Both the position numbers and the translations under genes were made by a program. A stretch of DNA of 64,000 nt, from positions 62,001 to 126,000 of the forward strand of contig CASFII010000006.1 of the NCBI GenBank assembly GCA_949294735.1, written 5' to 3'. Source of the DNA: an uncultured Coriobacteriaceae bacterium (lineage in GTDB: Bacteria; Actinomycetota; Coriobacteriia; Coriobacteriales; Eggerthellaceae). Below, piece after piece: positions 39,257 through 41,542 of this stretch (positions are counted from its first letter, which is position 1; every line of letters starts with the position of its first letter). The notes below the pieces were generated by a model. The model saw nothing but the letters and a program-made list of their open reading frames with translations. It ran no database searches and was not told the origin of the DNA.

Positions 39257-40411
39257 CTAGGAATTCATTTTTTCTTCGTTTGAATTTTCGTATTCTTTGC
39301 TAGTCTGAACCTCAGAGCTAGAAGCCTCTGGGTTCCCCACTTCCAGCACCTCAGCTTCTAATTCAATAGGTACATCAAGTTCTTCGTGAGCGCGTGGTGC
39401 ATTTTCGAGCATCCTCTTGAACGAACCTGCATCTTCGCCAGGAACCGACATCATCACATAAACATTTTGCCCAACGATTACTGGTTGAGCACGCTTGAAT
39501 CCCGAAACGCTATCAGTTACTAAACCTTCTTGACGTTTGGCACGTTCCTGATTGATGAAGTCTTGCATTTCTGAACGTACTTCTGCAATTTGCTGCGCCA
39601 CATTGGATTCCCACTGCTCATCATAGTAAGCCTTAAGATTTTTGTTGTAGCGCATTTGAATAACCTCGAGCACGATGCAAAAGACCATGGCGAAGTACAC
39701 AATGAGTTTTTCGAGGGGCATATGGAACAATTCAATACCAGTATGAACGCCAATACTGTCAATAACCAACAAGGCACCAATTGCAACAATGAAGGTTAAA
39801 GCGAGCATCTTCATTTCAGGATGCTTGTTAATGAAATCTGAAATAGTATCAATGAAAATCATCATCATGAATACAGCGAGCATAACCGCAATAATCATGA
39901 TAATAAGGTGTTCTGCCATTCCTACAGCAGTAATAACTGAGTCTATTGAAAACACGATATCCATAACCATGATGGTTCCAACCGCTTGAGGTAGACCAAG
40001 GGCATGTAATTTGGCGTGTTCCTCACTGGTTTGAGCTTTTACTTCTGTCAAACGAAGCATGTCAATAAGTTCAGAAATACCCTTGTAGATAAGGTAGGCA
40101 CCACCCAACAGTAACACGATGTCTCGAACCGAGAAGCCATGACTAAACGCACCTAGGTTCACTTCGAAGATTGGATTTGTCATATGAACCAAATAGGACG
40201 CAAAACACAAAAAGACAATGCGCATAATTAAGGCACCAGCTAGACCTAGTTTGCGACCTATGTGTTGCTTTTCTTCAGGCAGCCTGTTAGTAGTAATGGA
40301 AATAAATACGAGATTATCAATACCTAATACAATCTCTAAGAAGATAAGCGTGATGAGGCTTACCCACGCTTCAGGCGTCGTAATAATAGACAGATCAAAA
40401 ATATCCACCAT
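39257..40411 (-). CDS. TerC-family membrane protein, likely Mn2+ exporter
   Basis: A 384-residue integral membrane protein with about eight helices. The TerC motifs LEIVLGIDNLVFIS (about 25-38) and DIVFSIDSVITAVGM (about 151-165) supply conserved membrane Asp residues. The C-terminal part (from about 250) is cytoplasmic, with charged KLKAYYDEQWESNVAQ, an unusual tail rich in Glu/Val/Pro/Ser and the ending NEEKMNS. TerC relatives (Alx, MeeY, YkoY) export manganese or load metal onto secreted enzymes. ATG at 40411 follows AAAGGAG. A yybP-ykoY riboswitch lies just upstream, which supports Mn2+ responsiveness. The usual length is 220-330, so the tail is extra. Confidence 0.93.
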   Translation of the reverse strand: MVDIFDLSIITTPEAWVSLITLIFLEIVLGIDNLVFISITTNRLPEEKQHIGRKLGLAGALIMRIVFLCFASYLVHMTNPIFEVNLGAFSHGFSVRDIVLLLGGAYLIYKGISELIDMLRLTEVKAQTSEEHAKLHALGLPQAVGTIMVMDIVFSIDSVITAVGMAEHLIIMIIAVMLAVFMMMIFIDTISDFINKHPEMKMLALTFIVAIGALLVIDSIGVHTGIELFHMPLEKLIVYFAMVFCIVLEVIQMRYNKNLKAYYDEQWESNVAQQIAEVRSEMQDFINQERAKRQEGLVTDSVSGFKRAQPVIVGQNVYVMMSVPGEDAGSFKRMLENAPRAHEELDVPIELEAEVLEVGNPEASSSEVQTSKEYENSNEEKMNS

Positions 40412-40456
40412 TACTCCTTTAGTTCTGTTTGGTGTACCTACGTCTTTTCTGCGCCA

Positions 40457-40499
40457 TAAAAAAACTCACGGCGCAAGGTTTAAACCCTACGCCGTGAGT
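40457..40499 (-). terminator. Riboswitch-linked terminator upstream of terC
   Basis: Leftward, ACTCACGGCG (complement of 40490-40499) pairs with CGCCGTGAGT (complement of 40464-40473), followed by seven Ts. The loop holds GGTTTAAACC. Its 5' strand contains the CTCACGG also needed to close P1 of the riboswitch, so the two folds exclude one another. It lies 46 bases before terC. Confidence 0.9.
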
Positions 40500-40587
40500 C
40501 TTGCTACTTAAGGTATTCCAGATGCGCTTGTGCGCACCACGATGTTGAAAGTACCACGCTATATGCGCCAGCTACTCCCCCACGGGC
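40491..40587 (-). promoter_or_regulatory. yybP-ykoY (manganese-sensing) riboswitch of terC
   Basis: Read on the minus strand, the element starts with CCCGTGGGGGAGTAGC and ends with AGCAAGACTCACGG, with TTTCAACAT in the middle. The GGGGAGUAGC, UCAACA and AGCAAGAC segments are the hallmarks of yybP-ykoY aptamers, and CCGTG/CACGG close P1. It precedes a terC gene, the most common target of this riboswitch. Mn2+ binding would stabilise P1, block the terminator at 40457-40499 and switch terC on. The identity rests on conserved blocks seen by eye. Confidence 0.85.
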
Positions 40588-40626
40588 AATGTGCATGCTA
40601 ACAAATTCGAGAACTTGCGGCAATGC

Positions 40627-40632
40627 TATAAT
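40627..40632 (+). promoter_or_regulatory. Probable -10 element of the 40706 gene, next to the riboswitch promoter
   Basis: A consensus TATAAT lies 73 bases before the ATG at 40706. No strong -35 occurs at 17 bp. The complementary strand of this site, TATAGC/ATTATA, could provide the -10 for the leftward terC riboswitch transcript, making a compact divergent promoter. Confidence 0.4.
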
Positions 40633-40654
40633 GGCTGATGCATAAAAAGTGCAT

Positions 40655-40681
40655 CTCTGAGGCTTTTTGACAGCTTCAGAG
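40655..40681 (+). other. Leader hairpin upstream of the 40706 gene
   Basis: CTCTGAGGC (40655-40663) pairs with GCTTCAGAG (40673-40681), allowing one G-U, around TTTTTGACA. It ends about 24 bases before the start codon. GATGCA and TGCATC just before it can form another small stem. Function unknown. Confidence 0.4.
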
Positions 40682-40705
40682 TTCTGAGTAGAGAAACGAG
40701 GATAT

Positions 40706-41542
40706 ATGCCTAAGGGAAGGCCACAGACAAAGTCAGGTAACCTAGACAAGGTTCAAAGCTTTCTCCCCGATATAAAGCCAGCTGAGTACACCAAAACCGA
40801 TGGTAATGTTCGCTACCTGGATGGCGAAGAGCTCGCGCGCCCCTTTGATTTTCCGAATACATCGCGAAAAGCTCTTTTGATCTTTTTGGTGGTGGCTGCC
40901 CTCATTGGTGCCTTCTTCGTATTTCAAGTCTTCGACAAAGTGTTCGGAGAACCTGCACGCGCTCAGGCAGATGCAGAGGCTAACCTCGCCCGTGAAGTTT
41001 CATACGACTGGCCAACCTTAAGTGCGCTCATGGCGCTCGATGATGTCACCATACTTGATGATTTCGAAAACAGTGGGTTTACCATGTATGACCGCACCGA
41101 CGAGGCCGAACACGCTGCTGGTGGCTTCGACGTCATAAAGCTTCCCGGTGACGTAAGCCTAGCTGATGCGGGCGCTATGTACCTTGAAGGAGTTAATAAC
41201 CTTTCTGCTGCCAATGCCGCTAAACTCTTAAAGGGTTCTTGGACATTGACCGTTAACCGTAACGACTACGTTGACATGAACCTAAAGTATGCTGATTTTG
41301 ATTCTGGGAGCGTTGAGGCAGCTATTCAAACAGCCCTCAATGAACAGGGCTTAGCAAACAGTATCTTAGATGATAGCGGGGTCGACGATGCAGGTAACAC
41401 ATTCCAAAGCGGTGCAGTAGAAACAGAAGACGGCACCTACAACTGGCGCATATCAGCTATTTCACTCAGTTCGGTCTACGATATCGATGGTCTTCCCGAC
41501 ACGGCAGTCTATATCGGCATTCGTATGACAGAACAGGCTTAG
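40706..41542 (+). CDS. Single-pass membrane protein of unknown function, probably lineage-specific
   Basis: I do not recognise this 278-residue protein. It has a basic N-terminus (PKGRPQTKSGNLDKVQSFL), one membrane helix (about 55-73, ALLIFLVVAALIGAFFVFQVF) and an acidic extracytoplasmic domain rich in Asp/Ala with AREVSYDWPTLSALMALDD near its start. No signal for lipidation or catalysis was seen. The ATG lies 7 bases after GAAACGAGG. It is followed by tRNA-Cys on the other strand with a shared terminator. Its divergent neighbour is the Mn2+ riboswitch and terC. Confidence 0.75.
   Translation: MPKGRPQTKSGNLDKVQSFLPDIKPAEYTKTDGNVRYLDGEELARPFDFPNTSRKALLIFLVVAALIGAFFVFQVFDKVFGEPARAQADAEANLAREVSYDWPTLSALMALDDVTILDDFENSGFTMYDRTDEAEHAAGGFDVIKLPGDVSLADAGAMYLEGVNNLSAANAAKLLKGSWTLTVNRNDYVDMNLKYADFDSGSVEAAIQTALNEQGLANSILDDSGVDDAGNTFQSGAVETEDGTYNWRISAISLSSVYDIDGLPDTAVYIGIRMTEQA

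Follow-up and report, generated by a model that had tools for sequence, protein, structure and literature searches.

A manganese riboswitch whose mechanism has been worked out is found in L. lactis, where Mn2+ is described as stabilising the P1.1 helix, whose 3' segment otherwise joins a terminator (PMC11087558). In X. oryzae, P1.1 is likewise described as stabilised by Mn2+, with residues G8, G9, A10, G93 and A94 in L1, residues A45, A46, C47 and A48 in L3, and Mn2+ specificity arising from the N7 of A48 (PMC6754395). The E. coli mntP leader is described as a proven Mn2+ riboswitch (PMC9603457). A four-way junction with a P4 helix, as in the crystal structures, is typical of the yybP-ykoY class and is not counted as defining, and a three-way member has been reported (PMC9495176). 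TerC proteins, which are among the products of genes controlled in this way, are elsewhere described as having minor Mn2+ efflux activity and as metalating exported enzymes (PMC10550928), and those of Vibrio are reported to act as Mn exporters (PMC13274385). No drop in coverage was reported at the predicted riboswitch in Vibrio (PMC13274385), a reminder that expression platforms need to be judged case by case.

Here, a further example is described upstream of terC on the minus strand of the window (the whole 64-kb stretch of DNA that was analysed), which belongs to a genome of 1.34 Mb (8 contigs, 86% complete) with one terC gene, and in which the closest named relatives of TerC are Eggerthellaceae. 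The element is a genuine riboswitch for Mn2+ that known biology, including the mechanism established for L. lactis, explains well, and it very probably belongs to the yybP-ykoY (manganese) class and acts as an ON switch for the transcription of terC. What is new is its wide presence in the order, in a P4-less form that falls below the current Rfam threshold. Like the L. lactis Mn2+ riboswitch (RF00080), the element has the L1 and L3 motifs, a P1.1 3' strand that is also a terminator arm, and a proposed ON logic (PMC11087558; PMC6754395). It departs from L. lactis in having a 5-nt linker where that riboswitch has P4 and a four-way junction, and in an L3 that, by the numbering given in PMC6754395, is of the X. 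oryzae type (ACAU) and not UCAAU. The E. coli mntP riboswitch has the same L1 and UCAACAUACU loop and is matched by both of our covariance models, but by eye it differs in having a hairpin at the place of P4 and in lacking a U-tailed terminator attached directly to P1. From the published descriptions, the locus is also like B. subtilis ykoY (meeY), where a TerC-family gene is placed under a Mn-responsive riboswitch (PMC10550928), although in a distant lineage, and like the Streptococcus mgtA aptamer, a reported three-way-junction yybP-ykoY member (PMC9495176), which differs in controlling a Mn2+/Ca2+ P-type ATPase.

All features of the leader are read on the minus strand, where every sequence block named in the original prediction is present, including UCAACA and, by direct reading, the words GGGGAGTAGC (40580-40571) and AGCAAGAC (40505-40498). 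A probable promoter (40623-40595) consists of a -35 element TTGCCG (40623-40618), a 17-nt spacer and a TG-preceded -10 element TAGCAT (40600-40595); the automatic promoter scan, which needed at least 9 of 12 matches, found none, since this pair matches just 8 of the 12 consensus positions. In most of 33 related leaders, pairs like TTGCNN and TAGGAT recur with much the same spacing to the aptamer. The aptamer (40588-40490) comprises P1.1, L1, P1.2, P2, P3.1, L3 and P3.2, and is followed by a predicted intrinsic terminator hairpin with a 7-U tail (40500-40458; -30.3 kcal/mol, with a z of -3.58 for the fold of the whole leader), whose 3' arm ends in TTTTTTT at 40464-40458, 46 nt from terC. A simple terminator scan of the leader reported none, perhaps as some of the U run is taken up into the stem. 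A Shine-Dalgarno-like AAAGGAG (40420-40414) precedes terC (40411-39257, with the ATG at 40411), whose 384-aa product scores 153.4 bits against Pfam TerC (PF03741; cut-off 27.8) and thus belongs to this family. On the other side of the leader from terC lies a divergent gene on the plus strand (40706-41542) for which there was no Pfam match. In the region 40621-40632 (plus strand), TGCTATAAT at 40624-40632, before the divergent gene, adjoins the -35-like TTGCCG of terC, and the ATTATAGCATTG stretch is found again in many relatives.

The conservation of the element was followed in the 500 nt upstream of terC at 47 loci (30 taken from a list of 44 TerC matches and 17 from a second set, with some genomes represented in both). 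The element precedes terC at 37 of these, 36 of them found by motif search and one, L023 (TGCAAGAC), by eye; at the remaining 10 it was not found within 500 nt upstream, so the link between the riboswitch and terC is not universal. The gene context agrees with the original prediction in naming terC as the target gene. An alignment of 33 distinct terC leaders (A2), the window included, was used to read the structure, in which standard pairs occupy 94.4% of cells and 13 of 25 pairs show double changes. The covariation score of this alignment is 0.432; shuffled alignments give 0.261 +/- 0.012, with none of 500 as high, and slid controls give 0.04-0.11. RNAalifold yields an almost identical fold. 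Since the structure was read from A2 itself, it was re-checked on 26 other leaders (A4), where the score is 0.529 against 0.223 shuffled (again 0 of 500), in an alignment that was made by our first model, R1, and by construction leans towards the structure. Helices P1, P2 and P3 have covariation support in both sets.

In the window, all 7 pairs of P1.1 (40585-40579 with 40498-40492) are standard, and 90.9% of P1.1 cells are paired over the 33 leaders. P3.1 contains one C-A mismatch, next to which a pair is compensated (U-A for G-C). Between P1.1 and P1.2 lies the L1 internal loop, in which GGGGAGUAG faces C(R)AGAC; its GGGAGUAG and AGAC are invariant in 33 of 33 terC leaders. P4 is absent, and P3.1 is joined to P1.2 by a linker of 5 nt (UGAAA, UUAAA, UUAAU and similar) in all 33 terC leaders, with one additional base in a single leader, and likewise throughout the 26 of A4; we do not claim the resulting three-way junction as new. 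Folding by free energy, under models that ignore the non-canonical L1/L3 contacts, speaks against the aptamer: the unconstrained minimum of the aptamer segment is -31.9 kcal/mol, compared with -15.5 kcal/mol when the segment takes the consensus fold, and the minimum for the whole leader retains the terminator and other stems and not the aptamer.

The residues that form the metal site in X. oryzae have counterparts here (GGA and GA in L1, AACA in L3) that are invariant in 33 of 33 terC leaders, as is the CAACA of the L3 block UCAACA (40548-40543). The last A of this block, at 40543, is the sensing A, equivalent to A48 of X. oryzae and A41 of L. lactis in a mapping based on the numbering given in PMC6754395 and on our alignment rather than on a structure. 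The L3 variants CCACCA and CCAUCA, found in L130, L131 and L146, were considered as changes of the sensing A and rejected, as the last A is kept when the X. oryzae numbering is applied.

An Rfam search had been proposed as the check on the original prediction, with the lack of a significant covariance-model match counting against it. RF00080 has no match in the window at its gathering score, none at E<=10 on 40300-40800 and none anywhere in the genome, whereas models built from related leaders do find the element. R1, built from the 33 terC leaders with the window included, scores 81.4 bits (E 1.5e-19), and R2, whose training set of 25 mntP leaders and one ATPase leader excludes the window and all terC leaders, reaches 67.3 bits (E 6.9e-16), with nothing else in the 64 kb matching it at E<=10. 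Assignment to the yybP-ykoY class, as originally proposed, is supported by the R2 match, by covariation and by gene context. The proven E. coli K-12 mntP riboswitch is matched by both R1 (E 0.0088) and R2 (E 9e-5); the E. coli alx leader is matched neither by R1 at E<=1 nor by R2 at E<=10.

The RF00080 miss is a sensitivity problem, and its gathering score is a detection threshold rather than a definition of the class. In the structure line of RF00080, P1 is unpaired and there is a P4-like stem with a long loop, and this probably accounts for the poor sensitivity of the model here. Over 297 genomes of the order it gives 31 genomes with a match at E<=1 and none at the 45-bit cut-off; the best match scores 39.1 bits and is found in G006, immediately ahead of the terC of that genome. 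At E<=0.001, its matches in the order coincide with R1 elements in 6 of 6 cases, and 9 of the 35 places listed do so. R1, at E<=0.01, finds the element in 83 of the 138 genomes in the family and in 105 of the 297 in the order, which marks an annotation gap, given that RF00080 has none above its cut-off. Of these 105 genomes, 41 lie outside f1 and f2, the two families that supplied the unnamed training loci of R1. In 396 genomes of the phylum, 17 match R1 at E<=0.001; two of these lie beyond the order, and RF00080 matches both of those places. Several R1 matches were judged false: one in G266 (E 0.0028), outside f1 and f2; the weakest in the order, L152, which appears to sit inside a gene; and the antisense partial matches L144 and L145.

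Gene context was examined in 40 regions that were selected rather than drawn at random, comprising second copies in the family and matches in other families. These gave 41 R1 matches once E. coli and two antisense partials were excluded, and 40 were scored, one having too short a downstream sequence. Downstream are 28 MntP genes (at least 50% identity to a reference), one MntP-like gene (35%), 4 TerC, 4 Castor/Pollux-type channels and one P-type cation ATPase, while 2 matches, one of them L152, have none of these behind them; Pfam was run on one representative per kind. The riboswitch sits in the leaders of manganese-transport genes, terC here and those for MntP, TerC and a P-type ATPase elsewhere. 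The window genome has one mntP (G000:C6:169738-170223), upstream of which no riboswitch is detectable. It appears about evenly balanced whether the order (Eggerthellaceae and relatives) holds a distinct P4-less three-way branch of Mn2+ riboswitches, largely invisible to Rfam, that acts on mntP, terC, a P-type ATPase and, in some genera, a Castor/Pollux-type channel. The elements found by R1 give Eggerthellaceae and their relatives a testable Mn2+ regulon. In literature that was mostly non-subscription and searched by titles and abstracts, we found no earlier report of yybP-ykoY in Coriobacteria or of a manganese riboswitch in Eggerthella.

The 3' strand of P1.1, CUCACGG (40498-40492), lies wholly within the predicted terminator, in which 7 of its 7 positions are paired as part of the 5' arm. 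Sharing of this strand between P1 and a strong terminator, as the original prediction had it, extends to the related leaders: a script places at least 5 of 7 positions of the P1 3' strand in the terminator for 32 of the 33, and inspection by eye does so for the last, L023, whose terminator the script had cut at a T run inside its loop. A U run follows the terminator in 31 of the 33, L069 and L072 being without one. In the mechanism that we propose, the transcript would begin a short way before P1.1, with the promoter at 40623-40595 as its probable source. At high Mn2+, the ion would dock L1 (GGGGAGUA/AGA) onto L3 (UCAACA), stabilising P1.1 (CCGUGGG at 40585-40579 with CUCACGG), which would retain the strand that the terminator needs and let polymerase continue into terC. 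At low Mn2+, CUCACGG would instead pair with the downstream CCGUGAG arm, form the U-tailed hairpin and stop transcription. TerC, whose substrate we infer to be Mn2+, may then lower or redistribute cytosolic Mn2+. Of the earlier claim that Mn2+ turns terC on, the ON polarity is supported by the shared strand and the published mechanism; the Mn2+ response itself is presumed.

Other readings of the element must be set against this one. Were it simply a conserved terminator, or an attenuator of transcription arriving from upstream, and its aptamer-like words a product of chance, the very stable hairpin and the silence of RF00080 would both be expected, but covariation extends through P1.2, P2, P3.1 and P3.2, all of which lie outside the terminator, the independent R2 model matches at E 6.9e-16, and the same aptamer stands before other metal-transport genes. 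Barring an alignment artefact, the covariation already refutes this reading, and its probability is negligible. It is also highly improbable that a genuine riboswitch has lost its function in the window genome, for instance through the C-A mismatch of P3.1: this one non-standard pair and an assembly that is 86% complete speak for such a loss, as opposed to which the neighbouring pair is compensated, P1.1 keeps all 7 of its pairs, the terminator is undamaged, and R1 still gives 81.4 bits.

Somewhat less remote, yet still improbable, is a riboswitch of the same class that answers to another or a combined signal, either Ca2+ together with Mn2+ or alkaline pH with Mn2+. The Streptococcus mgtA aptamer, described as likewise having a three-way junction, is said in a review to bind Ca2+ tighter than Mn2+ (PMC9495176), and full activation of the E. 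coli alx and mntP riboswitches is described as requiring alkaline pH as well as Mn2+ (PMC9603457). Against this, the A that discriminates Mn2+ is present, and the context is dominated by MntP, a manganese exporter family (29 of 40, including the one MntP-like gene). Control of terC by a manganese riboswitch remains the preferred reading.

The original prediction also took an unusually long cytoplasmic tail of TerC as a hint of Mn2+ export. TerC proteins at the loci examined range from about 260 to 394 aa, and those of about 363-394 aa occur at 20 other loci (two pairs among them being identical records) and have in common a tail module, P-[IV]-x-I-G-x-N-V-Y-V-M-M-P..GEDA.SFK. The tail is thus not unusual in the lineage, and it is no evidence for export. 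An AlphaFold2 model of TerC has a mean pLDDT of 60, too poor for reading the tail, and a PDB sequence search with TerC gave no meaningful match. In the window, the C-terminal tail (39257-39600, minus strand) contains a conserved module common to a clade of long TerC proteins.

Several leaders elsewhere differ in what they precede or in their layout. In L140, L141, L131 and L130, the riboswitch lies directly before a gene of about 620 aa, of which the L140 representative matches Castor_Poll_mid (part of the Castor/Pollux ion channel) and the other three are 70-95% identical to it; L3 in these leaders reads CCAACAG or CCACCAG. We found no earlier report of a link between the riboswitch and Castor/Pollux in the literature searched, with subscription papers mostly outside it, and such control, if true, would link this channel family to manganese. 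Outside the order, L165 (G452:C292) is matched by both R1 and RF00080 and has a P1-sharing terminator with an ORF downstream, the start of which resembles, by eye, what we take to be UPF0016-type transporters. In L116, L126 and other mntP leaders of Eggerthellaceae, two hairpins are seen by eye in succession after P1, and pairing between the 3' arm of the leading hairpin and the 5' arm of the next looks feasible, which suggests a possible antiterminator layout unlike that of terC.
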